Part shown: positions 81 through 38,857 of the stretch, in pieces
Position numbering within the stretch: the first letter of the stretch is position 1
Layout: every line of letters starts with the position of its first letter
NCBI GenBank assembly: GCA_947442105.1
Contig: CANEVH010000016.1
Span: forward strand, 1 to 64,000
Source: Comamonadaceae bacterium
Lineage (GTDB): Bacteria; Pseudomonadota; Gammaproteobacteria; Burkholderiales; Burkholderiaceae_C
DNA: 64,000 nucleotides
Direction: 5' to 3'
Program-made: the position numbers and the translations under genes
The notes under the pieces: model-generated
Seen by the model: only the letters and a program-made list of their open reading frames with translations
Databases searched by the model: none
Told to the model about the DNA's origin: nothing

Positions 81-124
81 CGCATTCTCCTATGACTGAA
101 CATAGGGGTATCATAATACTATCG

Positions 125-448: not shown

Positions 449-460
449 GGCGTTAAAGCG

Positions 461-505
461 GAAGAACTTGCATGGTGGGGGGCGCTTCGCGCCTTCATGG
501 AGGTT
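461..505 (-). repeat. Interspersed hairpin repeat, copy D
   Basis: Read on the minus strand this copy runs CATGAAGGCGCGAAGCGCC followed by a CATG and AAGTTCTTC, matching copies near 4.35, 6.9 and 14.6 kb. The central stem here is GGCGC/GCGCC instead of GGTGC/GCACC, so both arms changed together. It lies about 56 bases downstream of the end of the preceding minus-strand gene, in the same orientation as that gene, and upstream of the truncated kinase. Confidence 0.7.
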
Positions 506-560
506 GGTGCACAGAATAGCGCGAACTGGCGTAGGGCCGCCCAGTGGGGAAGCGCGCGGT

Positions 561-1055
561 TCACCGCGCATTCTTGAGCTTGAGCAAGGCCCAGGCTCTG
601 GCGTTCAGAATGCCGGAATACAGCCCATACAGCGCGCTGATGCCCACTACTGCGGCCATGTTGCGCAACTGTCCTGGCGCCATAGCGTCCGCCATGCCGA
701 TGGCGAACTTGGTCGCAAAGATCAGCATGAACAGGGCCATGGGCCACCAGCTACCGGGCACGGCAAAGCGCTTGGTTTGCGCGTCATAGGCGGCGCCCGG
801 CGGCGCAGCGCGCTGGCCCAGCACGAAGGTAACCAACAGACAGCCGCAAGCCCAGCTTGCGATCGCCAAGGCCAGCCACGGCGTGCCGCGCCATTGCTGG
901 GTAACACCCACGAGCGTGACCACGCTGAGCACAATATTCATCGCCAGCAAGCGACGGACCGATAACACACGCGCACGGGATTGCTGCAACCCAAGGGCCA
1001 CGAGAGCGAGCAGGATGATGGGCACATAAAAAGGAATCTGCTGGAAAACGTTCAT
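561..1055 (-). CDS. Small integral membrane protein, DUF6622-like
   Basis: The product has 164 residues from ATG at 1053-1055; longer upstream extensions in this frame overlap the next gene and look spurious. Four or five hydrophobic segments are visible (about residues 8-24, 40-60, 66-86, 112-130 and 135-152) and there are no catalytic motifs. It resembles the uncharacterised DUF6622 membrane family. It sits 10 bases after a DUF2306-like membrane gene, so both are probably translated from one message that begins at the alpha/beta hydrolase. The function is unknown; an inner-membrane location is inferred from hydrophobicity alone. Confidence 0.65.
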   Translation of the reverse strand: MNVFQQIPFYVPIILLALVALGLQQSRARVLSVRRLLAMNIVLSVVTLVGVTQQWRGTPWLALAIASWACGCLLVTFVLGQRAAPPGAAYDAQTKRFAVPGSWWPMALFMLIFATKFAIGMADAMAPGQLRNMAAVVGISALYGLYSGILNARAWALLKLKNAR

Positions 1056-1065
1056 TGCAAACCCC

Positions 1066-1479
1066 TTACATCCACGCGCGCAGGCCAGACCAGAGCAAAT
1101 TACCCAGGTAGCGGTGCGGGAGCAAGCTAAACGCCCCCGCCACGATGCAGGCGCTGAAATACAGCCATTGCATGGCGCGCCGATGGCCTTGAACATTGCC
1201 CGCGCGCAAGTGGGCGAACGCGCGGTACAAAAGTGCAAAGGTAAGCGGCACAAAAAGGTGGATGGGCGTGAAGCCGGCTATGTTTGGCAGCCCAAAGTCG
1301 CGGATAAACAGGCTGCTGAGGGCTGCGCCCAGCATGCAGGTAACAAAGGCGTAGCCCAGGGCGCGGTGCCACTGGGGGCGCACCGTGCGCCCTAGCCGCG
1401 CCCAAAGCGCAAAAGGACCGATCAGCAACGCGGTCAGCGCAGCGCTCATGTGGATGGCGATGGTGGGTGTCATTTGCAT
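1066..1479 (-). CDS. DUF2306-like inner-membrane protein
   Basis: The protein has 137 residues with four predicted membrane helices (about residues 10-27, 41-60, 72-90 and 107-125). Conserved-looking histidines occur at the helix edges (IAIHMSAALTALLIGP, QWHRALGYAF, GHRRAMQW, LPHRYLG). This helix-histidine pattern is typical of DUF2306 proteins, which look like small cytochrome b561-type membrane proteins, although haem binding is not shown. Two ATGs (1477-1479 and 1471-1473) are possible starts. It lies between the alpha/beta hydrolase and the DUF6622-like gene on the same strand with short gaps. Confidence 0.7.
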   Translation of the reverse strand: MQMTPTIAIHMSAALTALLIGPFALWARLGRTVRPQWHRALGYAFVTCMLGAALSSLFIRDFGLPNIAGFTPIHLFVPLTFALLYRAFAHLRAGNVQGHRRAMQWLYFSACIVAGAFSLLPHRYLGNLLWSGLRAWM

Positions 1480-1530
1480 GGGGTGGTTTCTCGTGACAGG
1501 ACAAAAAGTGCTTGAAGGTTCATAAGGGCA

Positions 1531-2718
1531 TCAGAGCATTTGGGCAAAAAACACCGCGATGGCGTCAAAAGCCTTTTGGCGTTCTGCTGGTGTGAACTGG
1601 GGGTTGGGCAAACCACCGCGCATCTGCGTGGCGGCCACCGTCTGTGCCACGGCTGCTGGCCAGGGAGACAGCCAGTCAAAATGCCCGGCGCTGGGGTGCG
1701 CAGACAAGCGGCAGCAGGTTTTGCAATAGTCCAACACGCGTTCGCTGTGGTAGCGGGGCGCCAAGACGCCATCATTGCCCGCCGTGGTCAAACCCACAGG
1801 AATCGCGATGCGCGCCAGACTCTCTGCGGTAAAGAGGGCAGCCACTGGCACGGCCAGGCTCACGGCGGCCACGCGGGCGTCGGGCCGCGGATCGGCGGCG
1901 GCGCTGCTGCTACTTCCGCCCCTACCGCCTTCCAGTACTTTCATACTTTCGGGCGCACGGTCCTCGGACAAGGCCTTTGCCGCCATGAACTGCGCCTTGC
2001 GCATCGCTTGTTGCACGGGCTTGTCGCCCAGACCGTTCAGGCAAAAGCCAATGTCATCCTCCAAGTTGCGGGCGCAGTGCTGCACCAGGTCTAGCATGCG
2101 CCACTGCGCACCGGCCAAGGCCAAACCGGTGACGCCACCGGCCGACATGCCGTGCACGCCTACGCGCTGGGTGTTGACTTGCGTTGACAACGCGGGGTCG
2201 TGGGCCACGGCGTCTAGGGTGTCAATCACATCGCTGGGGCGGGTGCGCCAGCTATCAGGCCCGGCCTTGCTGAAGTCCAGGTAGTTGTCGCCCCGGTGCA
2301 GGGGCTGCGCCACCACAAAACCGGCACGCATCAGGGTGAGCGCCAAGTCGTAGTCAGGCAACTGGCTGCCTGCGGTGCCATGCGACAACACAACCAGGCG
2401 GCGCTTTTCGGGTGCGGGCGCGGCAAGCAGCGGCGCATTCATCGCCACCTGCAAAGTCCACCGCCCCCGCTCCACGGTTTGCGCCACTGCTGCCGTGGGG
2501 TACAGCAAAGTAATGGGCATGTTGCCCGACTGCATCTCCCGCATGGCGACCTGGGCTTGGCCCGCGCCACCACACAGATACAAACCGAGCACCAAAGCCA
2601 AGCGTGGCCAGTTGGCCCGCTTTGGCTTGGTGTGCTGCGCGTCGGCTCGCTGCGCTAGCCCGCCAGTGCTTTGCATGCCGCAGTCAGTGCGTTGGTATTC
2701 CTTGCTTTTCGTATGCAC
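1531..2718 (-). CDS. Secreted alpha/beta hydrolase (dienelactone hydrolase/PAF-acetylhydrolase-like)
   Basis: A predicted periplasmic serine hydrolase of 395 residues. The GTG at 2716-2718 is chosen because AAGGAGAG sits just upstream; the longer frame to 2835 has no such site, and an ATG at 2674-2676 is also possible. A signal segment (LALVLGLYLCGGAGQAQ) follows about 40 polar residues. The fold signatures are the oxyanion strand LVVLSHGTAGS, the nucleophile elbow GVHGMSAGG (Ser), an acid strand with AGNDGVL and a terminal His in SAGHFDWLSPW. A Ser/Ala-rich insert (GGRGGSSSSAAADPRPDA) may be a loop. The substrate is unknown. It is first in a minus-strand group with the two small membrane proteins. 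Confidence 0.8.
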   Translation of the reverse strand: MHTKSKEYQRTDCGMQSTGGLAQRADAQHTKPKRANWPRLALVLGLYLCGGAGQAQVAMREMQSGNMPITLLYPTAAVAQTVERGRWTLQVAMNAPLLAAPAPEKRRLVVLSHGTAGSQLPDYDLALTLMRAGFVVAQPLHRGDNYLDFSKAGPDSWRTRPSDVIDTLDAVAHDPALSTQVNTQRVGVHGMSAGGVTGLALAGAQWRMLDLVQHCARNLEDDIGFCLNGLGDKPVQQAMRKAQFMAAKALSEDRAPESMKVLEGGRGGSSSSAAADPRPDARVAAVSLAVPVAALFTAESLARIAIPVGLTTAGNDGVLAPRYHSERVLDYCKTCCRLSAHPSAGHFDWLSPWPAAVAQTVAATQMRGGLPNPQFTPAERQKAFDAIAVFFAQML

Positions 2719-2994
2719 AGTGTTCTCTCCTTGGTAAAAAATGACCCTGCCCCATGGGTGAAAGCATCCGAGTGCCATCAATGCTTGGTTGTGGTGATGC
2801 CACGGAACGCGGGTGACGGAAGTCAGTGTCTGCAAACGCTACGCTGGTGGGAAGCTATGTGCGATGGACGCACGCTTTGGTAGCGCCAATGGCAGAAATC
2901 AGGCGCCAAGATGCCGCCCGCCCTGCCCTACCCCAGCGCTGCTGCGCGGCGTGTGCATGCAGGCGCTGTGGCTTGCGCAGCGCCTCGCCGGCCT

Positions 2995-4207
2995 TTACTT
3001 TGGTCCGTTGGGCATGCGCCCCACCCAGCTGCCGCGTACCACCCAGCTATAGGTAAGCAGCACGGCGGCAAACTTGGCAATCGGCCCCAGCGCCACAGCA
3101 AGCAGCAGCGTCTGCAAGGCAATCACCAGCGGCAGGTGTGCCAAGTACATCCAGTACGAGGCCTCGGCCAGCCAGCGGATGACCAGGCGTTCACGCGTGA
3201 TCAGCGCGCCGCAAAGGCCTGTGGCGCCCAGGCAAGCAAGCCACGCATAGGCCGATTGCCCAAGCAATGCAGCCATGCGTCGCACTGGCGGGTCGGGCAC
3301 CCAGGACGCCAGCTCGACCGCGTGCACACTCAAGCTCAGCGCCAGAGGGAAGATGAGGCAGGCTGCGGGCAGCGTCAGCCACCAGCGCCTACCCAGCCCC
3401 TGCATGGCCTGCGGCATAGCGACGCACGGCGCTCCAAACCCAAAAAACACCGCAAAATAGCCAAGCACGCGCGGCATGGGCAAGATGCCCGCCGAAGTCT
3501 CCGGCCCGAAGCCAGTCTGCATGCCAAACCCGTACATGGGGACAGACATCAACGCCGTGAGTGGCACCAGCCACAGCAGCGCCAGCGGCGTGGCCAACAG
3601 CAAGCCGCGCACCTGGGACGAAAGGCCCGAGGGCAAACGCAGGCCCACAGCCCAACGCTGCACCACGGGTGCAAGCAACGCGAAGGCCAGGGTCAGCCAG
3701 CAGAGAAACCACAAAAACCAGAGGTGACCGAAAAACGGGAACACCACCATCCCCACAACTGGACCCATGGCCTGCGCCTGCGCAAAGAGCCAGCGCGGCG
3801 CATCACCGCTTGTGGCCCACCACACGGCAGCCCAATGCAGCGGCAAGACCGTGAACAAAGCCAGGCCCAGCGGCAGGGCGATGCGCGCTGCCGCAACAGG
3901 GCGCGCATGCCACGGCGCTGCCAAAGCAAACCGGTGAAATAGCTGCTCAGAAGAAAGAAAAGCGGCATGCGAAAGCCATGGATTGCCGCGAAGGCGACGC
4001 CCAAAATTCGGACGAAACGCGGTCCTGCGGCACCCAGGGAATGCCGGCATAGGCCAGCATCGCGTGCAAAGCCAGCCCCAGCAGCATGGCCGCTGTGCGC
4101 AGCGCATCCAGGTGGTGCAGGCGAGCCGGGGCTTGGGAGGAGGGGGATACATAGTCGGCGAAGGCGAAAGCAGGGATGCTGATTTCCACCACGAGATTGA
4201 AAATCAC
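2995..4207 (-). pseudogene. Frameshifted acyltransferase-3 (OpgC/OafA-like) membrane protein
   Basis: Three overlapping minus-strand frames together spell one acyltransferase-3 protein. The N-terminal frame gives LHHLDALRTAAMLLGLALHA, the hallmark His/Asp-Arg start of the family. Near 4002 a missing G shifts it to the frame reading FAAIHGFRMPLFFLLSSYFT. Near 3880 a second shift leads to the long frame, which carries about eight membrane helices to the stop at 2995. The family acetylates or succinylates sugars in the envelope. Two shifts in 130 bases mean a decayed gene or assembly errors. The start is uncertain; GTG at 4205-4207 fits best. It is flanked by ribonuclease R upstream. Confidence 0.75.
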
Positions 4208-4271
4208 CCCTTTTTGCCCGCCCTGCGCCAGCCTACCGCCTGCCCTGAGAATCCTGCGCCGCGTCCTGGCA

Positions 4272-4315
4272 ACGCACGCGCCGCGCCCTTGGGACGTGGC
4301 GCGTGCGTGTTTTTG
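4272..4315 (+). terminator. GC-rich hairpin followed by T-run, plus-strand polarity
   Basis: The arms ACGCACGCGCC (4272-4282) and GGCGCGTGCGT (4298-4308) pair perfectly over 11 bases and are followed by GTTTTT on the plus strand. This is the form of an intrinsic terminator. The genes on both sides are on the minus strand, so its polarity is opposite to expected transcription. It may stop antisense transcription toward rnr or be a relic. Confidence 0.5.
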
Positions 4316-4330
4316 CTGGGTGCGCGTTAG

Positions 4331-4377
4331 CTTGAGAGAGCTTTCATGATGGAGGTGCTGCGCACCTTCATGAAAGT
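4331..4377 (-). repeat. Interspersed hairpin repeat, copy A
   Basis: Read on the minus strand it begins TGACTTTCATGAAGGTGC; the TGA is the rnr stop codon. The outer arms ACTTTCATG and CATGAAAG pair, as do the inner arms GGTGC and GCACC around a three-base loop. It is the most symmetric of the four copies and directly abuts the 3' end of rnr. Confidence 0.8.
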
Positions 4378-6605
4378 CAGCGCCGCGTGCGCGGCGTCTT
4401 GCTTTTGGCTGCGGCCTTTTTTTCTGCTGTCGCAGCCTTGGCGCTGGCGCCCTTGGCCGACTTTCCACGTGCGGTCTCCTGCGCTCGGCTGCCCCGGTTG
4501 CGTGGGCTGCGGTCAGCGTCTGAAGCCTTGTCGAGCAATGTCTTGGAGGTAAGCGGCTGGCCGTTTTGCACCAAGCGGAAATCGATCTTGCGACCGTCCA
4601 GGTCCACGCGGCTGACCTGGATGTCGACCCGCGTGCCAATGGCGTAGCGCATGCCGGTGCGCTCGCCGCGCAGCTCTTGGCGCACTTCGTCAAAGCGGAA
4701 GTATTCGCCGCCCAGCTCTGTGATGTGCACCAGGCCTTCAACGTACATGGCGTCCAGCGTCACAAACAGGCCAAACGAGGTGGCCGAGGTGACCACACCG
4801 CTGTATTCCTCGCCCAAGTGCTCGTACATGTACTTGCACTTGAGCCAGGCTTCCACATCGCGGCTGGCCTCGTCGGCGCGGCGCTCATTGGCGCTGCAAT
4901 GCAGGCCCGCCGCCTCCCAGGCCAGGTTTTCGGCACTGGCCTTTTTGGGCTTGGCGCCTACCTCTTGCGCCTTGGCGGCCTTGCCTTTTTCCAGGCGGCG
5001 CGCCAGCTTGGCGTGCGCTTCGCCCGGAATCGGCAACGCTGGCAAGTGGTATTTGGCGTTGGCCAGCACGGCTTTGATCACCCGGTGCACCAGCAAGTCG
5101 GGGTAGCGCCGGATCGGGCTGGTAAAGTGGGTATAGGCGTCAAACGCCAAACCAAAGTGGCCGTTGTTGCCGGGCGTGTAAATCGCCTGTTGCATGGAGC
5201 GCAGCAGCATGGAATGGATTTGCGCGGCATCGGGCCGGTCTTTGGTGGCGTTGGCAATCGCCTGAAACTCGCCCGGCTTGGGCGTGTCGCTCACATTCAA
5301 TCCAATGCCCATGGCCTTGAGGTAGGCCCGAAGCGCCTCCACTTTCTCCGCCGTCGGTCCTTCGTGCACCCGAAACAGGCCCGCGTGCTTGCTCTGCGCA
5401 ATAAAGTCCGCGCTGCACACATTGGCCGCAAGCATGGCCTCTTCGATCAGCTTGTGCGCGACGTTGCGGGTGCGCGGCATGATTTTTTCGATGCGCCCGT
5501 TTTCGTCGCACACGATTTGCGTTTCGGTGGTCTCAAAGTCCACCGCGCCACGGCGCTGGCGCGACTTGAGCAGCGACTCGTAAACCCCATGCAAATTGAG
5601 CAAATCCCCCACCAAGGCCTTGCGTTTTTGCGCCTCCGGTCCGCGGGTATTGCCCAGTATGGCCGCGACCTCGTTGTAGGTGAAACGCGCATGGCTCCAC
5701 ATCACGGCCGAATAGAACTGGTAGGCGCTGACCTCGCCGTCGAGCGTCACGAACATATCGCACACCATGCACAAACGCTCTACCTCAGGCTTCAAAGAGC
5801 ACAGGCCGTTGGAGAGCTTTTCCGGCAGCATGGGAATCACCCGGCGCGGAAAGTACACGCTGGTGGCCCGGTCATAGGCGTCGATGTCGATGGCCGATCC
5901 GTTTTCCACGTAGTGGCTCACATCCGCAATGGCGACAAGCAAGCGCCAGCCCTTCACCGCAGACTTGCCGCGCCCCTGGGTGGCAGGCTCGCAATAGACG
6001 GCGTCGTCAAAGTCGCGCGCGTCTTCCCCGTCAATCGTGACCAGGGGAATATCGGTCAAATCAACGCGGTGGGCGTGGTCTTGCGGGCGCACCGCATCCG
6101 GCAGGCTTTTGGCAAGTGCCATGCAGGCCACGGAGAACTCATGGGGCACACTGTACTTGCGCACCGCAATTTCGATTTCCATGCCCGGGTCGTCCACTTC
6201 ACCCAGCACCTCTTGCACGCGGCCTACCGGCTGGCCAAACAGAGCGGGCGGCTCGGTGAGTTGCACCACCACGACTTGGCCGGTCTTGGCGTTGCCCGTA
6301 CCACCGCGCGGGATCAAAATGTCCTGGCCGTAGCGCTTGTCCTCGGGCGCCACCAACCAAACGCCACTCTCTTGCAACAGGCGGCCAATGATGGGTTGGG
6401 TCGACCGCTCCACAATTTCCACCACCCGGCCCTCCGGGCGACCGCGGCGATCACTGCGGACAATGCGCGCTTTCACACGGTCTTTGTGCAAGACGGCACG
6501 CATCTCGTTGGGGGGCAAATAGATGTCTGGGCCTCCGTCATCGCGCGACACGAATCCGTGTCCATCGCGGTGGCCTTGCACAACACCTTCGACTTCGTCC
6601 AGCAA
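4377..6605 (-). CDS. rnr: Ribonuclease R, 3'-5' exoribonuclease
   Basis: A processive hydrolytic exoribonuclease of about 742 residues acting on structured RNA. Domains in order: cold-shock OB domains (about residues 5-160; GHRDGHGFVSRDDGGPD, IYLPPNEMRAVLHKDRV), an RNB catalytic domain (about 190-520) with the acidic motif IDGEDARDFDDAV that binds magnesium, an S1 domain (about 620-705) and a basic Lys/Ala/Ser tail. The only upstream ATG (6681-6683) lies inside the tRNA-Leu gene on the opposite strand. The TTG at 6603-6605, giving LLDEVEGVVQGHRDG, is therefore taken as the start because relatives begin near there; no clear Shine-Dalgarno precedes it. The stop merges with repeat copy A. Confidence 0.92.
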   Translation of the reverse strand: MLDEVEGVVQGHRDGHGFVSRDDGGPDIYLPPNEMRAVLHKDRVKARIVRSDRRGRPEGRVVEIVERSTQPIIGRLLQESGVWLVAPEDKRYGQDILIPRGGTGNAKTGQVVVVQLTEPPALFGQPVGRVQEVLGEVDDPGMEIEIAVRKYSVPHEFSVACMALAKSLPDAVRPQDHAHRVDLTDIPLVTIDGEDARDFDDAVYCEPATQGRGKSAVKGWRLLVAIADVSHYVENGSAIDIDAYDRATSVYFPRRVIPMLPEKLSNGLCSLKPEVERLCMVCDMFVTLDGEVSAYQFYSAVMWSHARFTYNEVAAILGNTRGPEAQKRKALVGDLLNLHGVYESLLKSRQRRGAVDFETTETQIVCDENGRIEKIMPRTRNVAHKLIEEAMLAANVCSADFIAQSKHAGLFRVHEGPTAEKVEALRAYLKAMGIGLNVSDTPKPGEFQAIANATKDRPDAAQIHSMLLRSMQQAIYTPGNNGHFGLAFDAYTHFTSPIRRYPDLLVHRVIKAVLANAKYHLPALPIPGEAHAKLARRLEKGKAAKAQEVGAKPKKASAENLAWEAAGLHCSANERRADEASRDVEAWLKCKYMYEHLGEEYSGVVTSATSFGLFVTLDAMYVEGLVHITELGGEYFRFDEVRQELRGERTGMRYAIGTRVDIQVSRVDLDGRKIDFRLVQNGQPLTSKTLLDKASDADRSPRNRGSRAQETARGKSAKGASAKAATAEKKAAAKSKTPRTRR

Positions 6606-6655
6606 GCCGCTGGTTTGACTAACTTGTTTGATACAATTGCTCTCTTTCCTGAAAT

Positions 6656-6740
<85 letters not shown>

Positions 6741-6884
6741 AATTTTCTGTTTTCTTTGCGGGCGCAATGCTTGCAAAGCGAGAGATAAGAAAGAAGATCA
6801 AGGCCCCAGCGCCCCTGAGTCTACGGTAGTTTGTCGGCACACTCACGGTGGTGAGCGCATACTTCAACATTTAGAAGACCAGCT

Positions 6885-6939
6885 AACTTTCATGAAGGTG
6901 CGCAGCACCCGCAGTCACGAGAGTTCTTCCACGTCAGCG
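6885..6939 (+). repeat. Interspersed hairpin repeat, copy B
   Basis: It begins TAACTTTCATGAAGGTGCG, matching copy A base for base over this stretch, then GCACCCGCAGTCACGAGAG and GTTCTTCCACGTCA. The 3' outer arm is degraded compared with copies A and C. It lies 145 bases downstream of tRNA-Leu in the same orientation. The rest of 6741-6980 shows no gene. Confidence 0.75.
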
Positions 6940-6980
6940 TACGCGAGCCAAACAGGCTGCCTGCTACTAATCCACATATA

Positions 6981-7011
6981 AAAAAACCGCTTTGGAAACA
7001 AAGCGGTTTTT
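6981..7011. terminator. Bidirectional intrinsic terminator
   Basis: AAAACCGCTTT (5' arm) and AAAGCGGTTTT (3' arm) form a perfect hairpin with an A-run before and a T-run after. It therefore works in both directions, ending tRNA-Thr transcription from the right and tRNA-Leu transcription from the left. Confidence 0.88.
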
Positions 7012-7020
7012 ACATTTGCG

Positions 7021-7096
7021 TGGTGCCGATTATCGGATTCGAACTGATGACCTACCGCTTACAAGGCGGTTGCTCTACCAACTGAGCTAAATCGGC
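7021..7096 (-). tRNA. tRNA-Thr(TGT)
   Basis: A 76-base gene on the minus strand with encoded CCA. The acceptor arms GCCGATT and AATCGGC pair, the anticodon arm is CCGCC-TTGTAA-GCGG type with anticodon TGT, and GTTCGAATC is the T-loop. It decodes ACA threonine codons. TAGAAT 13 bases upstream is a possible -10. The strong terminator follows 10 bases downstream. Confidence 0.96.
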
Positions 7097-7181
7097 GCGT
7101 TATCCATTCTACTCCGAGGTCGATTCAAGGCGCCCCGAAAAACGGCGCTAAAGACAGCATATTTGGTGGCGCCTGTAACGC

Positions 7182-7673
7182 CTATTTCACTCGCTTCAGT
7201 GAGGGGCGAGGAGGCGTTGGCGGTTTCGGGTCGGTATCTTTTGCGCTGTCGTCGGGCGTTACGATAGCCCTCAAGGGTGGCGTTGATTCAGGCGCTGCGG
7301 TGGGGGAACGAGCGATTGCAGGCTTGGCGCGCAACAGATCGTCGGGGCTTGCGGTCTCCACCGGGAATGTCATTCCTTGGCCGTTTTCGCGGGCGTAAAT
7401 GGCGGACACCCGACCGAGTGGGACACAAATGTCACGCGCCACGCCACCAAATCGGGCCTTGAACTCTATGTAATCGTTGCCCAAGGACAAACTGCTAGTA
7501 GCACCCATGCTGACGTTGAGCACAATCTCACCGTTTTGCACAAACTCCTGAGGGACACGCACCGTCCCATCCACCGCCACCACGATAAACGGCGTGCAGT
7601 TGTTGTCAACACACCAGTCGTACATGGCGCGAACCAGATAAGGGCGGGTGGATGTCGTGGACGGGGCTTGCAT
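7182..7673 (-). CDS. sspB: ClpXP adaptor SspB
   Basis: An adaptor that delivers ssrA-tagged peptides from stalled ribosomes to the ClpXP protease. It has 163 residues: a folded substrate-binding domain to about residue 105 (STRPYLVRAMYDWCVDNNCTPFIVV, VSMGATSSLSLGNDYIEFKARFGG), a flexible Pro/Ala/Thr-rich linker, then the C-terminal ClpX-docking peptide PPRPSLKRVK, equivalent to the RPALRVVK tail of E. coli SspB. It follows sspA on the same strand, the usual pairing. The 44-base gap between them holds a GGCGCC-loop-GGCGCC hairpin. Confidence 0.93.
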   Translation of the reverse strand: MQAPSTTSTRPYLVRAMYDWCVDNNCTPFIVVAVDGTVRVPQEFVQNGEIVLNVSMGATSSLSLGNDYIEFKARFGGVARDICVPLGRVSAIYARENGQGMTFPVETASPDDLLRAKPAIARSPTAAPESTPPLRAIVTPDDSAKDTDPKPPTPPRPSLKRVK

Positions 7674-7717
7674 AAGGCCTGGGTTTGAGGGCGAGGTTGG
7701 GCGCCTTGCTGGGCGCC

Positions 7718-8329
7718 TTATTTGCGCATGACCTTTTCAGAGGGCGTGAGCGCTTCAATGTATGCCGGACGCGAAAAAATACGTTCTGCATATTTGAGCA
7801 AGGGCGCAGCATTTTTACTCAGATCAATGCCGTAGTACTCCAGGCGCCACAGCAGCGGTGCAATGGCAACGTCCAACATGGAGAAGCTATCGCCCATCAT
7901 GAACTTGTTTTTCAGGAACACCGGAGCGAGCTGGGTCAAGCGGTCACGAATGTGGGCGCGGGCTTTTTCCAGCGCTTTTTCATTGCCTTTGCTGCTGCGC
8001 GACTCCAGCGTAGTGACGTGCACAAACAATTCCTTCTCGAAATTGAGCAAAAACAAGCGCACGCGGGCGCGGTCCACTGGGTCCCCAGGCATCAGCTGGG
8101 GGTGCGGGAAGCGCTCATCAATGTACTCGTTGATGATGTTGGACTCGTACAAGATCAAATCACGCTCGACCAGAATAGGTACCTGGCCGTAGGGGTTCAT
8201 CACATTGATGTCCTCGGGCTTGTTGTACAGATCGACGTCACGGATCTCAAAGTCCATGCCTTTTTCGAACAGCACGAAACGGCAGCGGTGAGAAAACGGG
8301 CAGGTGGTTCCTGAATACAGCACCATCAT
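7718..8329 (-). CDS. sspA: Stringent starvation protein A, GST-fold RNA polymerase-associated regulator
   Basis: 203 residues with an N-terminal thioredoxin-like GST domain (MVLYSGTTCPFSHRCRFVLFEKG) and a helical C-terminal domain (from about residue 85). The conserved stretch NPYGQVPILVERDLILYESNIINEYIDERFPHP, read in short pieces (PYGQVPILVER, ESNIINEYI), matches SspA. The family binds RNA polymerase during stationary phase and acid stress and lacks glutathione transferase activity. It is cotranscribed with sspB. AGGAG stands upstream of the paired ATGs at 8324-8329. Confidence 0.92.
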   Translation of the reverse strand: MMVLYSGTTCPFSHRCRFVLFEKGMDFEIRDVDLYNKPEDINVMNPYGQVPILVERDLILYESNIINEYIDERFPHPQLMPGDPVDRARVRLFLLNFEKELFVHVTTLESRSSKGNEKALEKARAHIRDRLTQLAPVFLKNKFMMGDSFSMLDVAIAPLLWRLEYYGIDLSKNAAPLLKYAERIFSRPAYIEALTPSEKVMRK

Positions 8330-8343
8330 GGCGGGGGACTCCT

Positions 8344-8384
8344 AAAAAATAAAAAGAGTGGGCTGCATTTGGCGAGCCCACTCT
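8344..8384 (-). terminator. Intrinsic terminator of the petABC operon
   Basis: AGAGTGGGCT and AGCCCACTCT (8355-8384) form a perfect ten-base stem with a ten-base loop. On the minus strand it is followed by a T-rich run (8344-8354). It lies 52 bases past the cytochrome c1 stop and just before the sspA ribosome site. Confidence 0.9.
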
Positions 8385-8435
8385 GTGACGAGCGACAACC
8401 GAAAACCACGGTTGCGCAAGGGATTGGGGTGCTGC

Positions 8436-9191
8436 TTACTTGACGTCTTTCCAGTAGGCCGCATTCAAGCGCCAGGTGAACACAGTCATGACGAGCAAAA
8501 ACAGCAGAACCCACACGCCGACCTGGACGCGTTTGGCTTGCGACGGCTCGGACATCCATTGCAAATAACCCACCAAATCACCGATGGTTTGGTCATATTC
8601 CAAGGGAGTCATTTTACCGGGGGTCAATTGCTCCCAGCCTTTGAAAACCTCGGTTTCATGACCGTGCACAATTTCCGTGGCGTAGATCGGCGCGCGCTTG
8701 CCCTGCAACTCCCAAAGCACATGGGGCATCGCCACATTAGGGAAGGCCAGGTTATTCCATCCCGTGGCCTTGTCCCCGTCCACGTAAAAGGTGCGCAAAT
8801 AGGTGTACAGGTAATCAGCGCCCGTACCGTTTGCACCCGAGCGTGAACGTGCCATCACTGTCAGGTCAGGCGGGTTGCCACCGAACCATTCTTTCGCCTG
8901 GCGTGGATCGACGGTGACTTTCATGGTTTCACCGACCTTGTCGGTGGCGAAGAGCAGGTTGTCCTTGATTTCCTGCTCGGTCAGGCCAAGGTCCTTCAAG
9001 CGGTTAAAGCGCATGTAGGCCGCAGCGTGGCAGTTCAGGCAGTAATTGACAAAGGTTTTGGCGCCGTTTTGCAGCGCTGCCAAGTCGTTGATATTGTTGG
9101 GCGCCTTGTCCCAGGCAATGCCACCGGTGTTGGCATGCGCCACCACCACGAGGCTCAGAGCGGTGATCAAGCTGAGTACGATTTTTTTCAT
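8436..9191 (-). CDS. petC: Ubiquinol-cytochrome c reductase, cytochrome c1 subunit
   Basis: The membrane-anchored c-type cytochrome of the bc1 complex, which passes electrons from the Rieske centre to soluble cytochromes. 251 residues from ATG at 9189-9191: signal peptide (KKIVLSLITALSLVVVAHA), haem motif CLNCH near residue 53, sixth-ligand region FPNVAMPHVLW with the axial Met, and a C-terminal membrane anchor (VGVWVLLFLLVMTVFTW). The start is chosen at the signal peptide, 16 bases after the petB stop, with GGAG upstream. It is third in petABC, followed by a strong terminator. Confidence 0.96.
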   Translation of the reverse strand: MKKIVLSLITALSLVVVAHANTGGIAWDKAPNNINDLAALQNGAKTFVNYCLNCHAAAYMRFNRLKDLGLTEQEIKDNLLFATDKVGETMKVTVDPRQAKEWFGGNPPDLTVMARSRSGANGTGADYLYTYLRTFYVDGDKATGWNNLAFPNVAMPHVLWELQGKRAPIYATEIVHGHETEVFKGWEQLTPGKMTPLEYDQTIGDLVGYLQWMSEPSQAKRVQVGVWVLLFLLVMTVFTWRLNAAYWKDVK

Positions 9192-9207
9192 TGCTTCAAA
9201 CTCCAGC

Positions 9208-10608
9208 TCAGTGGGCGACGAAGGTGACGCGCTGGGGAACGGTCTTGGTCTCACCCATCTTGCTCCACCAAGGCATCAGCAGGAAGAAGCCGAAGTAAAA
9301 CAGGGTGCCCACTTGCGATACGCGTTCACCGATGGCCGACGGTGGCTGCACACCAAGGTAGGCCAGCACGATGAAATTGACCACAAAAATGCCATACATG
9401 TATTTGTGCCAGCTCGGGCGGTAGCGGATCGACTTGACCGCGCAGTTGTCCAGCCAGGGCAGGAAAAACAGAATCACCACTGCGCCACCCATGATTACCA
9501 CGCCCCAGAACTTAGCGTCGATCGACAGCATCATGGCGGTGACCGCAGCGGCGGCGCAAACAATGACGATCTTGAAGATGGCGGGCATCTTGATCTTCAA
9601 GACGCTGAAGGCGGCGGCACCGACCACGCAGGCAATGAGCACCAGCACCATTTCTCCGGTGATGGCACGCAGCATGGAGTAGTAAGGCGTGAAGTACCAA
9701 ACCGGCGCAATGTGCAACGGAGTTTTTAACGGATCGGCCGGGATGAAGTTGTTGTATTCCAAAAAGTAGCCGCCGAACTCAGGCGCAAAGAAGATGATGG
9801 CAGTAAACACCATCAAGAACATGCACACGGCAAAAATGTCGTGCACTGTGTAGTAAGGGTGGAAAGGAATGCCGTCCAGTGGATGGCCGTCCGCGCCCTT
9901 GGTCTCCTTGATTTCCACGCCGTCCGGATTGTTCGACCCCACTTCGTGCAAGGCGATGATGTGCGCTGCCACCAGGCCCAAAAGCACCAGCGGCACAGCA
10001 ATCACGTGGAAGCTGAAAAAGCGGTTCAGCGTAGCGTCACCGACCACGTAGTCACCGCGAATCAGCAAGGCCAGATCGGGGCCGACAAAGGGCACAGCGG
10101 CGAACAAATTCACAATCACCTGCGCGCCCCAGTAGCTCATCTGGCCCCAAGGCAGCAAATAACCCATAAAGGCCTCTGCCATAAGGCACAAGAAAATACC
10201 GCAGCCAAACAGCCACACCAGTTCGCGCGGCTTGCGGTAGCTGCCATAAATCAGGCCGCGGAACATGTGCAAATAGATCACTACAAAAAACGCCGACGCG
10301 CCAGTGGAGTGCATGTAGCGAATCAACCAGCCCCATGGCACGTCGCGCATGATGTATTCCACCGAGCCAAACGCCAATGCGGCGTCCGGCTTGTAATGCA
10401 TCACCAGAAAAATGCCGGTAACGATCTGAATGACCAGCACCAAGGTGGCCAGGCCGCCGAAGATGTAGAAAAAGTTGAAGTTCTTGGGTGCGTAGTACTG
10501 ACCCAGATGGTCGTTGTACAACTTGCTCAAGGGAAAGCGGTTGTCAACCCAGTTCAGCAGCTTGGCGCCTGCGGGTGCGTTGGGGGATATTTCTTTCATT
10601 TCAGCCAT
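9208..10608 (-). CDS. petB: Ubiquinol-cytochrome c reductase, cytochrome b subunit
   Basis: The membrane core of the bc1 complex, carrying two b haems and both quinone sites. 466 residues from ATG at 10606-10608, preceded by GGAG; the longer frame to 10641 would overlap petA. Diagnostic stretches are [16 protein letters not shown] with haem histidines, [31 protein letters not shown] and the quinol-site motif just before YVVG. About eight or nine helices are visible, plus two extra C-terminal ones ending near the FFLLMPWW segment, as is usual in betaproteobacteria. It is the second gene of the operon. Confidence 0.97.
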
Positions 10609-10621
10609 GCTGTGCTCCGCT

Positions 10622-11236
10622 TCAGGCTTTGGTGTCTTCACCGATCAGCAAGCGGCTGTCGGTCAGGTACATATGGGGCGGAATTTCCAGGTTGTCCGGC
10701 GCAGGCTTGTTCTTGAAAACGCGCCCCGCCATGTCAAAGGTCGATCCGTGGCAAGGGCACAAGAAACCACCCTTCCAGTCGTCCGGCAAGGAGGCTTGTG
10801 GGCCGCTTTGGAATTTGTCGGATGGCGAGCAACCCAAGTGGGTGCAAATACCAACGGCAACAAAAAATTCCGGCTTGATGGATCGACCCACGTTGCGGGC
10901 GTACACCGGTGTGAATTCGTCTTGCTTGCGCTTGGAATCAGGATCGGCCAAAGCGCCGTTCAATTCGGGCAACGCGGCCAGCTGTTCGGGTGTGCGGCGC
11001 ACCACCCAAACCGGTTTGCCACGCCACTCCACCGTGATTTTTTCGCCTGGCTTGATGGCAGAAATATCCACCTCTACCGCAGCACCGGCCGCTTTCGCGC
11101 GCTCCGAAGGCTGGAAAGTGCTGACAAAAGGCACTGCAGTAGCTGCTGCGCCCGCGATGCCTGCGCAGCTAGACCAAATGATCCAAGTGCGTTTGCTGGG
11201 GTCGTTCGGCGTGGCGCCGACGAGGGTGTCGCTCAT
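10622..11236 (-). CDS. petA: Ubiquinol-cytochrome c reductase, Rieske iron-sulfur subunit
   Basis: The 2Fe-2S subunit of the bc1 complex; it accepts an electron from ubiquinol at the periplasmic face. 204 residues with an N-terminal [19 protein letters not shown] anchor, a K-R variant of a Tat signal-anchor, and the cluster-binding motifs CTHLGC and CPCHGS near residues 130-160. It starts with ATG at 11234-11236 and leads petABC. The 85-base gap to pdxA is the only upstream space for an operon promoter. Export probably uses the tatABC genes in this window. Confidence 0.96.
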
Positions 11237-11321
11237 GAGAATCCTCAGGAAAAATCACTACGTGGGAAGCCTTCCATTGTAGCTGAGCGAAGTATCCCTA
11301 GCGCAAGGTCTGCCGTAGCGC

Positions 11322-12404
11322 TCAGCAAGGCGTCTGTGCTGGAGCCGCCAGTGTTTGCGCCATGCGCACGGCGGCGATCAAACTGGCCGGGTCGGCGCGG
11401 CCTTGGCCGGCAATGTCAAACGCGGTGCCGTGGTCCGGGCTGGTACGCACCAGCGGCAAGCCCAGTGTGACATTCACCCCCTGCTCCACGCCCAGGTACT
11501 TCACAGGAATAAGGCCCTGGTCGTGGTACATCGCCAGCACCACGTCGAATTCGGGTTCTTTGCCATTCCGGGCCCGCGCCCGCATGAACACGGTGTCAGG
11601 TGCCCAGGGGCCGCTGGCGTCGCAGCCCTGCACGCGCGCCGCAGCGATGGCCGGGGCAATGGTGCGGATTTCTTCGTCGCCAAACAGACCGCCCTCGCCT
11701 GCATGGGGATTCAGACCTGCCACCGCAATGCGCGGCGCGCGACCTAGTAGCTGCTGCATGGCGCTGTGGGTAATCATCAGCGACTGCAGCACGTTGTCGT
11801 GGGTCACTGCCGCCAAGGCATCGCGCAGCGACAGGTGGATGCTCACCAACACCGTGCGCAACTCTGGGTTGGCCAGCATCATGCGCACCGGGAGTTGTGC
11901 CACCGACACGTGGGCATGTTGGGCGGCGATGGCTTGGAGCATTTCGGTATGGCCGGGGTACTCGTCGTACGGAGCACCGGCGGCGTGCAGCGCCTCTTTG
12001 TGCAAGGGCGCGGTCACCAAGGCAGCGATCTCGCCCTCCAGCGCGAGCTTTGCCGCCCAAACCACGCAACGCCCGGCGAATTCACCCGCCACGGCGCTCA
12101 CCTGCCCCATCGCCACGGTCGCTAATGGGGCGCCCACTTGGAGCACCGGCAGACAGCGCAGGGGCACCTGCTGCCAGTCACGGGAGTCGCTGATGTGCGC
12201 CACCGGCCAGGCGGGAACGCCTGCGGGCGTAACAAGCGCCATGGCGCGGCGCATGGCGGCCACGTCGCCCGCCACCACGCATTGGCGCATAAAAACCGGC
12301 TCCGTGACAAAAGCCTTGGCGATGATCTCCGGCCCTATGCCTGCGGCGTCGCCCATGGTGATGGCGATCGGTTTTGCCTCATGGGGGGCGGCAATGGATG
12401 TCAT
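11322..12404 (-). CDS. pdxA: 4-hydroxythreonine-4-phosphate dehydrogenase
   Basis: Oxidises 4-phosphohydroxy-L-threonine with NAD in the DXP-dependent route to pyridoxal phosphate. 360 residues. Signature stretches include ITMGDAAGIGPEIIAKAF at the N-terminus, VTAPLHKEAL, the metal-site PGHTEMLQ, VAGLNPHAGEGGLFGDEE and AMYHDQGLIPVKYLG; the dispersed histidines are the metal ligands of the family. It follows the Nif3-like gene after a 68-base gap on the minus strand. Length and motifs are normal. Confidence 0.96.
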   Translation of the reverse strand: MTSIAAPHEAKPIAITMGDAAGIGPEIIAKAFVTEPVFMRQCVVAGDVAAMRRAMALVTPAGVPAWPVAHISDSRDWQQVPLRCLPVLQVGAPLATVAMGQVSAVAGEFAGRCVVWAAKLALEGEIAALVTAPLHKEALHAAGAPYDEYPGHTEMLQAIAAQHAHVSVAQLPVRMMLANPELRTVLVSIHLSLRDALAAVTHDNVLQSLMITHSAMQQLLGRAPRIAVAGLNPHAGEGGLFGDEEIRTIAPAIAAARVQGCDASGPWAPDTVFMRARARNGKEPEFDVVLAMYHDQGLIPVKYLGVEQGVNVTLGLPLVRTSPDHGTAFDIAGQGRADPASLIAAVRMAQTLAAPAQTPC

Positions 12405-12472
12405 GGGTGGCGGTCCCTCAAGAAATAAGTATTCGACGCGGCTGTTCGATGTCTGCGCGCGCCCTCAGCACG

Positions 12473-13234
12473 CTAGGCCGGGTTGTCAATGTCAATAAAC
12501 GTGTGCGAAAGCCCCAACTGCCAGGCCACCTGCTGCGCCACCGCTTGCACACCATAGCGCTCACTGGCATGGTGGCCACAGGCGATGTAGGCGACGCCGC
12601 ATTCTCGGGCGTAATGGGCTTGGGGCTCGGAAATTTCACCAGTGATAAAGGCCTGGGCGCCTGCTGCGATGGCCGCCTCAAAATAGCCCTGCGCGCCGCC
12701 GGTGCACCAGGCGATGCGCTGCACCGGCCCCGAATGTCCAGGCACCAGCACCACCGCGCGGCCCACTACCACCTCCACATGCGCCGCCAACGCCGCTGCA
12801 TCTGCGAAGAGCCCCTCGCGCGGCACGCCCAGCCAGCCCAACTGCTGCTCGCCAAAGCGCTCTTGCCCCACCAGGCCCAGGCGCGCGCCCAGTTGGGCGT
12901 TGTTGCCCCATTCTTCATGGGCATCCAGCGGCAAGTGGTAGGCAAACAGGTGAATGTCATGGGCCAGCAAGAGCGCCAGGCGCTGGCGCATCCAGCCAGT
13001 CACCCGTCCGTCGTGGCCGCGCCAGAAAAGGCCATGGTGAACAATGATGGCGTCGGCTTGCTGCGCTACCGCCGCTTCGATCAGCGCCAGACTGGCAGTG
13101 ACCCCGCTGATGATTTTTCGCACCGGGCGCCGGCCTTCGACCTGCAGGCCGTTGGGGCAGTAGTCCTTGAAGCGCGCGGGCTCCAACATGGCGTCCAAGG
13201 CGGCTAGCAGGTCAAGGTGGTGCGTCATGGTCAT
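12473..13234 (-). CDS. Nif3-like dinuclear metal-centre protein (YbgI/DUF34)
   Basis: A toroidal metal-binding protein of the Nif3/YbgI family; the substrate is unsettled, with GTP cyclohydrolase-like and chaperone roles proposed for relatives. About 254 residues. Metal-ligand motifs are IIVHHGLFWRG near residue 65, FAYHLPLDAHEEWGNNAQL and the C-terminal GHHASERYGV. Two ATGs (13232-13234 and 13226-13228) are possible starts and neither has a strong ribosome site. The frame extends to 13321 but into the divergent promoter region shared with the protease gene. Confidence 0.9.
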   Translation of the reverse strand: MTMTHHLDLLAALDAMLEPARFKDYCPNGLQVEGRRPVRKIISGVTASLALIEAAVAQQADAIIVHHGLFWRGHDGRVTGWMRQRLALLLAHDIHLFAYHLPLDAHEEWGNNAQLGARLGLVGQERFGEQQLGWLGVPREGLFADAAALAAHVEVVVGRAVVLVPGHSGPVQRIAWCTGGAQGYFEAAIAAGAQAFITGEISEPQAHYARECGVAYIACGHHASERYGVQAVAQQVAWQLGLSHTFIDIDNPA

Positions 13235-13435
13235 GGGTCTGGGCCGTAGGGTTGCAAGAGGCCCACAGTGCCACGCTGGGTGTGGCCAAGGGCCGGGTCT
13301 CGGGCTCAATCGAGTTTGCACCCATTATCGAACGGTCTAGCGGCATGGCATTGCGCGGGTAAACAGGCGAAGTCGCCGCCTAAAATTCGCAACATACGGC
13401 GCAAACGAGCGCTTCACTTTGTAGTTGGGACTGGC

Positions 13436-14578
13436 ATGAAGCGTTTTTGGCTCCTTTTTTCGCAAAGCACTACCGTCTTGCTGGCGGCGTATTTTGTGGT
13501 TTCGACGCTCAAACCGACTTGGATGGGACCACGCGGCGAAGGCACGGTCGCGTTATTGCAGGCGCCGGCCTTGCGCAGCGGCGAAGTTCCAGCCGGTAGT
13601 TTTCGGCTGGCAGCGCAAAGCGCCTCCAAGGCAGTGGTGAGCATTAACGTGAGCAAGACCAATCGCCAGTCGCCCGCAGGGGCCGACCAGTGGCACCGGT
13701 TTTTCAACGGCGAGCCCGATGGGGAGCCCGACGGTGCATCCGGCATGGGCAGTGGCGTCATCGTCAGCGACAGCGGCTATGTGCTGACCAACAACCACGT
13801 CGTGGAGGGCGCAGACCTGATTGAAGTGATTTTGAACGACCGCCGCCGCGCCCGCGCCAAAGTGGTCGGCACTGACCCGGACAGCGACTTGGCGGTGCTC
13901 AAAATTGAACTCGACCGCTTACCCGTGATGGTGCTGGGCGACTCTGACGACTTGCAGGTGGGCGACCAGGTACTGGCCATTGGCAACCCCTTTGGCGTGG
14001 GCCAAACGGTGACGGCCGGCATCGTTAGCGCACTGGGGCGCAACCAGCTGGGCATCAACACCTTTGAGAACTTCATTCAGACCGACGCGGCCATCAACCC
14101 TGGCAACTCTGGCGGCGCGCTGGTGGACGCCAACGGCAACCTGCTGGGCATCAACACAGCCATCTATTCCCGCACGGGCGGCAGTTTGGGTATTGGTTTC
14201 GCCATTCCGGTGTCCACTGCAAAACAGGTGCTTGATGGCATCGTCAAAGACGGCCGCGTCACCCGCGGCTGGATTGGCGTGGAGCCCAACGACCTGTCGC
14301 CTGAACTCAGTGAAACCTTTGGCGTGTCAGCGCGCAGTGGTGTGATCATCACCGGGGTATTGCAGGGCGGGCCAGCTGCCCAAGCTGGCATCGTGCCGGG
14401 CGATGTGATCGTGGCCATCACCGGCGCGCCGGTGGACGACGTGAGCCAACTGCTGTCGCAAGTGGCGGCGCTCAAACCTGGCGTGGCGGCACCGTTTTCG
14501 GTGCAGCGCAAAAAACAAACCCTGGAACTCAGTATCACGCCGGGCTTGCGACCTCGACCTCAGGACAGCAGGCGCTAA
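13436..14578 (+). CDS. DegS-type periplasmic serine protease (HtrA family, one PDZ domain)
   Basis: A membrane-anchored regulatory protease of 380 residues. One N-terminal helix (about residues 4-24) anchors it facing the periplasm. The trypsin-like domain has the triad His121 (LTNNHVVEG), Asp151 (DSDLAVLKI) and Ser225 (NPGNSGGAL). A single PDZ domain spans about 280-365 (GVIITGVLQGGPAAQAGIVPGDVI), matching DegS instead of two-PDZ DegP. DegS relatives cleave anti-sigma factor RseA on outer-membrane stress; no rpoE/rseA genes are nearby. It is divergent from the Nif3-like gene and convergent with tatC, with repeat copy C between. Confidence 0.9.
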   Translation: MKRFWLLFSQSTTVLLAAYFVVSTLKPTWMGPRGEGTVALLQAPALRSGEVPAGSFRLAAQSASKAVVSINVSKTNRQSPAGADQWHRFFNGEPDGEPDGASGMGSGVIVSDSGYVLTNNHVVEGADLIEVILNDRRRARAKVVGTDPDSDLAVLKIELDRLPVMVLGDSDDLQVGDQVLAIGNPFGVGQTVTAGIVSALGRNQLGINTFENFIQTDAAINPGNSGGALVDANGNLLGINTAIYSRTGGSLGIGFAIPVSTAKQVLDGIVKDGRVTRGWIGVEPNDLSPELSETFGVSARSGVIITGVLQGGPAAQAGIVPGDVIVAITGAPVDDVSQLLSQVAALKPGVAAPFSVQRKKQTLELSITPGLRPRPQDSRR

Positions 14579-14630
14579 GTTTCATGCGGGTGCGCAGCAC
14601 CCTCCATCATGAAAGTTCTTTCACGTCAAG
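14577..14630 (+). repeat. Interspersed hairpin repeat, copy C
   Basis: It begins TAAGTTTCATGCGGGTGCG and continues through GCACCCTCCATCATGAAAG to GTTCTTTCACGTCAAGG. The TAA is the stop of the DegS-type gene and the TCA near the far end is the tatC stop read from the other strand. The repeat therefore fills the whole convergent intergenic space. Inner stem GGTGC/GCACC and outer ATG/CAT arms are kept. Confidence 0.8.
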
Positions 14631-15429
14631 GCGCGCTGGTTTCGGCTGATTTGCCTTGCGGCTCCTCGGGCGCTTGCGTGTGCCGAATAAAGATCTGCGC
14701 AGCCCAAATACCCAACTCGTACAAAATGCACATGGGCACCAGCAGCGCCAGCATGGAGACCGGGTCCGGCGGCGTCACCAATCCGGCCACGGCCGCCGCT
14801 GCGACAATGAAGTAAGAGCGAAACGCCTTAAGCTGGGCTACTGTGACCATTTTCATGCGCGCCAAGATCACCACCACAATGGGCACTTCAAAAGCCACCC
14901 CAAAGGCGATGAACATGGTGATGACAAAGTCCAGATAGGCTTCAATATCGGGACTCACAGCCACCGATGTCGGTGCCATTTTCTGGATCGCCGGAAAGGC
15001 CTGGCCAAAGACGAAAAAATAGCAAAACGCCGCACCGGTATAAAACAGCACCGTGCTGGCGGCCACCAAAGGCAGCACCAGCTTCTTCTCATGCTTGTAA
15101 AGACCGGGCGCGACGAAAGCCCACATTTGGTAAAGAATCCAAGGAAGCGCGCAGGCAATAGCAGCCATGACGGACACCTTGATGGGCACCAGAAAGGGGG
15201 AGACCACGCCCACCGCAATCATTTTGGACCCTTCAGGCAGCGCTTTGACCAAGGGCATGGCTAGGTAGTCGTACATCTTGGACGGCCCTGGATAAATAAC
15301 CAGAACGGCAAATACCGCCCCGATGCCGTAAATGGCGCGCAACAAGCGGTCGCGCAATTCAAACAAGTGCTGGACAAAAGGCTGTTCGGAGCCCGCGAGT
15401 TCGTCGTCTTTGGAGCCGGAGTTGTTCAT
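14626..15429 (-). CDS. tatC: Sec-independent protein translocase subunit TatC
   Basis: The multi-spanning receptor of the twin-arginine translocase; it recognises RR signal peptides of folded proteins. 267 residues with six helices. The family stretch [20 protein letters not shown] opens the protein and [16 protein letters not shown] is a conserved core helix. ATG at 15427-15429 overlaps the tatB stop by four bases, suggesting coupled translation. The C-terminal tail is Glu/Pro-rich. MsrP in this window and possibly the Rieske protein are likely clients. Confidence 0.96.
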
Positions 15430-33233: not shown

Positions 33234-37979
<4,746 letters not shown>

Positions 37980-38047
37980 AGCGCACTCCTGAAAATTAAC
38001 AAAGGTCAAAAAGCATACCGCACTGCAACAAAAGTGCCAAGCACTTT

Positions 38048-38068
38048 AATTGGGGTCAGATTCCAATT
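38048..38068 (+). repeat. Left inverted repeat of the transposase unit
   Basis: The repeat contains TTGGGGTCAGATTCCAA and is the exact reverse complement of 38858-38878. Each arm is itself an imperfect palindrome (AATT at both ends, TTGG/CCAA inside), so each could fold as a small REP-like hairpin. Confidence 0.9.
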
Positions 38069-38855: not shown

Positions 38856-38857
38856 TG

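Follow-up and report, generated by a model that had tools for sequence, protein, structure and literature searches.

A dispersed hairpin repeat, often behind stop codons: a probable miniature mobile element of narrow distribution in a Rhodoferax-type genus

How does one short hairpin come to lie repeatedly at the very end of genes, at times directly behind their stop codons? The question is raised by a stretch of 64,000 nucleotides from a Comamonadaceae bacterium (GCA_947442105.1, contig CANEVH010000016.1, positions 1 to 64,000; hereafter the window), in which a first-pass annotation had noticed four copies of a hairpin repeat of about 50 bp. It took them for a family resembling repetitive extragenic palindromes (REPs) and tuned to gene ends, possibly a 3'-end RNA stabiliser or a mobile element inserting at stop codons. 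Our analysis gives a probability of roughly 0.64 that a single REP-like miniature mobile element, carried by few members of a Rhodoferax-type genus, gave rise to the hairpins. A special role of the stop codon and a function at the RNA level gain no support, while the mobile-element half of the interpretation stands. As the family is narrow and offers both filled and empty orthologous sites, its sequences can show how such repeats reach gene ends; they suggest that a short target, together with tolerance of insertions, goes far to explain this placement, with no stop-codon role needed.

The hairpin family and its unit

Within the window, all four copies are confirmed by matches to a covariance model that we built from an alignment of 29 copies. 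The coordinates given first are those of element positions 9-62.

453 to 506, minus strand: copy at 461 (model match 457-514, 46.1 bits)
4327 to 4379, minus strand: copy at 4331 (model match 4331-4387, 68.9 bits)
6884 to 6937, plus strand: copy at 6885 (model match 6876-6933, 68.9 bits)
14576 to 14629, plus strand: copy at 14577 (model match 14568-14625, 71.7 bits)

The copy at 461 is the most diverged of these, and it is here that the compensatory change claimed for the inner arms of one copy is found, as a paired change, GGCGC/GCGCC, in the inner stem. The letters by which the first-pass annotation named its copies (A to D) are out of step with its own list of coordinates, each of its statements still fitting one copy.

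The repeat is a real dispersed family. Searched with the covariance model, as had been proposed, the whole 3.64-Mb genome yields many copies rather than few, with 147 matches at E≤0.1 spread over 57 of 97 contigs, in line with the REP-like dispersed family that had been postulated. At least two of the matches are opposite-strand readings of palindromic copies; two such readings were omitted, 145 matches were carried on, and 141 copies were placed relative to genes, leaving out C52:15372, C54:10201, C58:12132 and C78:3319 (our handles for sites of this genome). The core pattern TTTCATGNNGGTGCNNNGCACC, with up to three mismatches allowed, matches four times in the window against 0.47 expected, a number reached by none of 100 shuffles; three of these are exact, the fourth is the copy at 4331 read on the opposite strand, and the copy at 461 does not appear among them. 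In the whole genome the pattern has 100 matches on one strand and 80 on the other, whereas the reversed pattern has 4 and 8.

The unit has the layout YTAACTTTCATGA-GGTGC-GCA-GCACC-n-CATGAAAGTTCTTTCACGTTAA and is mostly 53-54 bp long, positions 9-62 spanning 53 or 54 bp in 90 of the 108 copies of at least 40 bits; across 141 copies, GC content averages 0.49. Conservation in a profile made from 65 ungapped copies extends over positions 8-62, and the profile reads Y-TAA-C-TTTCATGA-n-GGTGC-GCA-GCACC-n-CATGAAAG-TTCTTTCACG-TTAA, with mostly C at position 8 and mostly T at position 59. The consensus of this profile has no end-to-end terminal inverted repeats, its ends being rather direct repeats, CTTTCATG/CTTTCACG, and it has no unpaired GTAG or CGTC tag at either end of the hairpin, its left end reading YTAAC and its right end TTCTTTCACGTTAA. 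Some copies follow one another head to tail, as tandems with a period of about 50 bp whose neighbours have a TTAA in common. Near-perfect palindromic variants, matched by the model on both strands, are present in the same genome at C2:62381, C1:150131 and C4:78792.

Native stop codons and placement behind genes

Did the genes in front of the repeat end at these stop codons before the repeat arrived? In the window, the following genes are in direct contact with a copy.

4377 to 6683, minus strand: rnr, ribonuclease R (TIGR02063 and profile searches), ended by a flush copy
13268 to 14578, plus strand: Do/DegS-type serine protease (best NCBIfam model TIGR02037, slightly below cut-off), ended by a flush copy
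14626 to 15429, minus strand: tatC (profile searches), convergent, its stop touching the right end of the copy at 14577

That the repeat begins at stop codons, as first described, is true of two of the four window copies, those at 461 and 6885 not being flush. The copy at 4331 starts with the TGA of rnr (4379-4377) and is also present behind rnr in the sister genome G073. The copy at 14577 starts with the TAA of the protease gene and occupies the spacer of two convergent genes, its right end overlapping the stop of tatC (TCA 14626-14628); both of these contacts had been seen correctly. The copy at 461 starts 54 nt past the stop of a DUF6622 gene (561-1253, minus strand; Pfam). The copy at 6885 sits in the spacer between tRNA-Leu and tRNA-Thr, where the gene upstream is no protein gene but tRNA-Leu (6656-6740), about 140 bp away; the spacer is without a copy in all six relatives in which it was read whole, G073 included. 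With this tRNA gene counted, the reported co-orientation with the upstream gene is true for all four copies. A strong terminator-like hairpin followed by a T-run lies behind tRNA-Thr near this copy (6982-7011, minus strand).

Comparison with element-free relatives shows that the stops are native behind most of the copies compared: at seven of nine comparable sites, most or all relatives end the protein at the same codon, and when only flush copies are considered, six of seven lie behind a pre-existing stop. For rnr, the same end codon is found in all nine relatives without a copy whose rnr 3' end was read; for the protease gene, in all eight relatives read, none of which has a copy; for a thioesterase gene (C13:71165), in eight of eight relatives without a copy; for a dehydrogenase gene (C13:69984), in the one relative without a copy, G114 also carrying it; and for secA (C21:57113), in seven of seven without a copy. 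For yacG (C21:54417) it is shared by five of seven relatives, the other two having diverged at the end, and for marC (C1:149407) by seven of eight, the eighth ending one codon later. At the marC copy (L117, about 2601-2658), positions 9-11 read GGA instead of the TGA, TAG or TAA of the relatives, and translation continues for three more residues up to a TGA of the element itself, as it does in G073 too; this copy is not among the flush ones counted below. The cleanest filled and empty site is that between secA and argJ: the order here is stop, 51 bp of element, 9 nt and ATG, and in all seven relatives stop, 9 nt and ATG, which reads as a clean 51-bp insertion. The 3' end of tatC is too variable among the relatives to compare, and the C-terminal residues encoded by a CorA-like gene to the right of the copy at C1:150131 are different from those of all eight relatives read. 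Left out of these comparisons were C11:80393, where the match in G114 is not alignable at the end, and C17:42824, where G073 has a shrunken copy and an unchanged C-terminus.

For the genome-wide placement, 100 regions (568 kb) were fetched and their genes called by a purpose-written, hexamer-based finder. A co-oriented gene is found on the left of 98 of the 141 copies, and in 39 of these 98 the copy is flush, the gene ending exactly at element positions 9-11 (TAA 29, TAG 5, TGA 5). The counts of copies, orientations and stop distances that had been suggested as a check thus reveal an enrichment at stops. On the other side of the element, the right-hand gene points at it in 63 cases, 13 of which stop exactly at positions 59-61. 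The spacers that hold an element are convergent in 42, co-directional in 76 and divergent in 15 cases, as compared to 38, 168 and 63 among the element-free spacers of the same regions. In co-directional spacers the copy follows the direction of the genes by 56 to 20, and by 35 to 14 without the flush copies. Seven of the placed copies are inside called genes.

An element which itself supplies the stop at a random position of the gene is disfavoured, because the C-termini are unchanged at seven of nine sites, because there is a bias in reading frame (39 copies flush, three nine bases further in the same frame, two in a second frame), and because seven copies are intragenic. The sites counting for stops supplied by the element are C9:16576 and C11:52238. 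The earlier idea of a mobile element that comes to lie at stop codons is therefore upheld by the 39 flush copies and the native stops at seven of nine sites, with these two weak copies to the contrary.

Drift, target and proposed mode of insertion

What, then, accounts for this placement? One answer would be a functional RNA element at the 3' end, a transcribed hairpin that halts exonucleases or polymerase and that selection places and keeps. It would fit the 98 copies that follow a co-oriented gene, the over-representation of convergent spacers, and the folding of the window copies at 4331 and 14577, which is far better than that of shuffles (z of -3.8 and -3.1); however, the copies at 6885 and 461 fold unremarkably (z of -1.7 and -0.45). 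The stems do covary between copies, as the first-pass annotation had expected, with 31 cells changed on both sides against 8.1 in shuffles and 9-15 in slid controls. The underlying alignment (120 matches from 90 of our 100 regions, among them at least five in which a copy that was in the alignment anyway is read on its opposite strand) was fitted to the model and hence leans towards structure. This covariation suggests that the hairpin mattered while the copies spread, but it does not imply a use as RNA, as it also arises when hairpin subfamilies are copied as DNA. With that, none of the outcomes named beforehand as speaking against the family has occurred: the copies are not few, and neither the enrichment at stops nor the covariation is missing.

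Selection for an RNA function is further argued against by the way in which the copies age. Orthologous copies agree with those of G073 in 459 of 477 bases (nine pairs; flank pieces 77-98%) and with those of G114 in 214 of 263 bases (five pairs; flank pieces 81-95%), so that these 14 pairs, taken from 30 loci of the relatives, are no more conserved than their flanks. No match is found in 97 of 103 genomes of the genus, and 43 of the 141 placed copies, the seven intragenic ones included, are not behind a co-oriented gene. Among the terminator-like sites listed by a scan of window positions 1-15500, none overlaps a copy, although one on the opposite strand abuts that at 4331; an intrinsic terminator was rejected on this basis. 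Thus the proposed 3'-end stabiliser finds no backing in these data, and we consider an RNA element unlikely. At the G073 site orthologous to C17:42824 (L077), all that is left of the copy is one TTTCATG arm, probably after loss of the segment between CTTTCATG and CTTTCACG, the repeats at its ends. The most similar two copies at different loci are 94% identical and the median is 74%, as would be expected of an ageing family.

A second answer would be an enzyme that recognises stop codons or the 3' ends of genes, for example via terminating transcription or translation, rather than just a tetramer. Such an enzyme is suggested by the 39 flush copies among 98 and by native stops touching both ends of the element in places. 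However, among 92 copies that do not adjoin a stop, 45 have a stop-like triplet at positions 9-11 too, and this motif therefore belongs to the element or its target. When YTAA at the copies (28 flush, 32 not) is set against all non-coding sites (92 and 543), the excess looks large, but most such sites are not behind genes. Compared with YT(AA/AG/GA) sites within 150 nt behind co-oriented genes, the ratio is 36:25 at the copies and 330:437 in the background (odds ratio 1.9, p=0.022); for YTAA only, within 60 nt behind genes, 28:10 against 98:61 is not significant (p=0.19; p=0.15 at 150 nt). Of the stops preceded by Y in the sampled regions, which were chosen for holding copies, 28 of 126 TAA, 4 of 72 TAG and 4 of 168 TGA are used. 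Of the supposed tuning to stop codons there remains a small flush excess, which the YTAA-only comparison does not bear out. A short YTAA-like target and tolerance behind genes would largely cover the stop pattern, and an enzyme reading stop codons as such appears distinctly improbable.

A third possibility is a classic, target-duplicating miniature inverted-repeat transposable element (MITE) of an IS5- or IS630-like element, for which the duplicated target would be TAA or YTAR. Both ends of the unit do read YTAA/TTAR, and the secA-argJ and marC sites, taken singly, would fit a duplicated stop triplet. In 106 copies, however, the left (8-11) and right (59-62) tetramers match 231 times against 232.9 in shuffles (p=0.66); the two ends do not covary, and this independence argues against a duplicated target. 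Considering in addition that position 8 is mostly C where position 59 is mostly T, and that direct repeats take the place of terminal inverted repeats, we regard this origin as very improbable.

The reading we prefer is that of a miniature element without a gene, terminal inverted repeats or a GTAG or CGTC tag. On insertion, its left end would be attached 3' of a short target sequence, chiefly YTAA, while the right end, GTTAA, would come with the element; there is no general sign of target duplication. Insertion at a stop codon would leave the protein unchanged, and as stop codons are among the most frequent positions of YTAA on the coding strand behind genes, many flush copies and few copies between divergent genes would follow; after insertion, the copies would drift. 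Non-autonomous derivatives of IS200/IS605 elements have a subterminal hairpin and no terminal inverted repeats, and they insert 3' of a short, AT-rich target without duplicating it. Our repeat is similar in its hairpin, its lack of terminal inverted repeats and its AT-rich left target, and its single hairpin, asymmetric ends and one-sided target would resemble single-strand transposition by HUH/Y1 enzymes of the IS200/IS605 type or of the type of REP-associated tyrosine transposases (RAYTs). Unlike such derivatives, it has only a single hairpin in about 50 bp, and the one Y1_Tnp gene of the genome is of the RAYT type. While the left target YTAA and the independent ends fit an IS200/IS605-like insertion, right ends at native stops of the reverse strand do not follow from it.

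A helper for this preferred element would have to act from elsewhere, and the window contains one candidate.

38163 to 38876, minus strand: REP-associated tyrosine transposase (Y1/HUH; NCBIfam NF047646, 82.7 bits, cut-off 80)

This gene, the only Y1_Tnp match in the genome, adjoins a glutamate synthase gene (33234-38009). No hairpin copies flank it; it is bordered instead by GGGGTCAGATTCCAATT inverted repeats at 38052-38068 (plus strand) and 38858-38874 (minus strand), which are unrelated to the hairpin and have no further occurrence in the sequence read (568 kb and the window). We thus rejected it as the owner of the repeat, to which it is not linked and whose place is taken by its own inverted repeats, found at its two ends only; it may act as a helper in trans. 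A Y1-type transposase gene is present in 96 of 103 genomes of the genus, with or without the hairpin, so its presence does not track that of the repeat. In a more elaborate scenario, which as a whole we offer tentatively and hold to be rather unlikely, the repeat would be a miniature single-strand transposon with stops at both ends (YTAA...TTAR) that lands flush between convergent genes and ends both frames natively, with an inner hairpin exchangeable between species and the lone RAYT, or an enzyme already lost, as its helper in trans.

Several observations weigh against the preferred reading. Two of them concern the helper and the movement itself: no helper was found, the sole Y1 transposase having unrelated inverted repeats and being genus-wide, and the closest pair of copies at different loci is diverged enough to give no proof of recent movement. 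Likewise, no copy split around a gene is among the 147 matches listed, though an assembly of 97 contigs could miss one. Others concern the ends. The 13 right-end flush stops among 63 are not explained by a purely left-sided target; a TonB-dependent receptor gene (C3:25735) natively ends at the right end of the element in four of four relatives without a copy; and the copy at C1:149407 has at its right end a TGA, like the native stop, which is what a duplication would produce. The filled rnr site seems to be without a few bases that follow the stop in the relatives. At two sites the protein is shortened: by about four residues compared with the G114 homologue at C9:16576, where the copy is flush but weak (23.5 bits), and by seven compared with the G073 relative at C11:52238, where the unit is degenerate. 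A G073 homologue of the dehydrogenase (71%), which we took for a paralogue and did not count, ends about three residues later. Finally, the gene calls rest on a home-made finder.

Relatives and comparison with known repeats

How does the family relate to repeats already described? REP families, as treated in a survey, include untagged REP-like repeats, and their hairpins lie mostly behind genes (Di Nocera et al., 2013, PMC3733652). Our repeat shares with them the short dispersed hairpin, the many, mostly intergenic copies, the position behind genes, the preference for convergent and co-directional spacers and the occasional intragenic copy. It differs from the REPs described there in its nested two-part stem, in its tail ending in GTTAA and in lacking the GTAG or CGTC tag, and from GTAG REPs also in having TAA, not TAG, at its end and no linked transposase. 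As it has neither a tag nor a linked RAYT, it is not a GTAG or CGTC REP, but REP-like in its placement. The ends of GTAG REPs often provide a TAG stop, according to the same survey (PMC3733652), so that contact with stop codons has a precedent. Of the RAYT and TIRYT tyrosine transposases (PMC3733652, PMC2817692), the genome has one, that at 38163-38876. A GGGGWSAS motif is reported there for transposases flanked by inverted repeats (TIRYT; PMC3733652); the flanks of the window transposase form an inverted repeat with GGGGTCAG, which fits this motif and not the hairpin. An untagged hairpin family without a linked transposase touches on a question that Di Nocera et al. (PMC3733652) leave open for CGTC REPs.

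No description of the hairpin sequence was found in the literature, as represented by open-access PMC text, and in the accessible portion of the Rhodoferax ferrireducens genome paper palindromic repeats are mentioned only as CRISPR (PMC2755013). Rfam has no match at the copies at gathering thresholds, and none up to E=1 at window positions 14500-14720. Set against the consensus of the integron attC core site, the ends are similar (TAAC...GTTAA); the bases at positions 6 (mostly C) and 63 (most often C) do not fit, however, and attC was discarded as an identity.

The family is narrowly distributed. Matches at E≤0.001 were found in six of the 103 genomes of the genus, namely 57 in the genome itself, 35 in G073, 18 in G114, 5 in G104, 3 in G103 and 1 in G116, counts that come from stricter filters than the 147-match search and include opposite-strand readings; a first sample of 24 genomes of the genus had given no match. 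In other families of the order, two of 16 genomes have one marginal match each (E of 0.003 and 0.01). When genomes were searched singly, two of them had 42 and 25 matches, at coordinates that equal those of G073 and G114, respectively; in public records they are Rhodoferax sp. D15.bin.5 and Comamonadaceae bacterium Jr-20nov17-158. A scan of public species genomes for the exact 20-base core returned 17 stretches, eight and five of them in these same two genomes and the remaining four as single ones in unrelated bacteria; one of the four, a Pseudomonas putida genome, has no match to the covariance model. Viral contigs contain no exact match to the core or to the tail, a phage collection gave no match, and a phage link was rejected; two viral contigs match the outer arms only, with another inner sequence and without the tail.

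A distant relative is found on plasmid 2 of Polaromonas sp. JS666 (L345, 1500-1566; blastn E of 0.09, 30.1 bits with the model), the strain with the most Beta-proteobacterial repeat elements (BREs) in the study of Hot et al. (2011). These elements, reported from Comamonadaceae including Rhodoferax and Polaromonas, are described as occurring in tandem, as mostly intergenic and as possibly mobile, with full copies of 75-91 bp and 63.7-78.9% GC in Bordetella next to shorter partial ones (Hot et al., 2011, PMC3110155). Our repeat is like them in being betaproteobacterial, mostly intergenic, at times in tandem and suspected of mobility, yet at 53-54 bp and 49% GC it is set apart from these published descriptions, if by length and GC only, and none of the 17 exact core stretches is labelled Bordetella or Polaromonas (the presence of these genera in the scanned collection being unchecked); we regard identity with BREs as the least probable of all the alternatives. 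The covariance model leans on the inner stem, and relatives with other inner stems may escape it. The Polaromonas copy has the same outer arms and, apart from a short insertion, nearly the same tail around a different inner stem, which suggests that the inner hairpins may be exchangeable.

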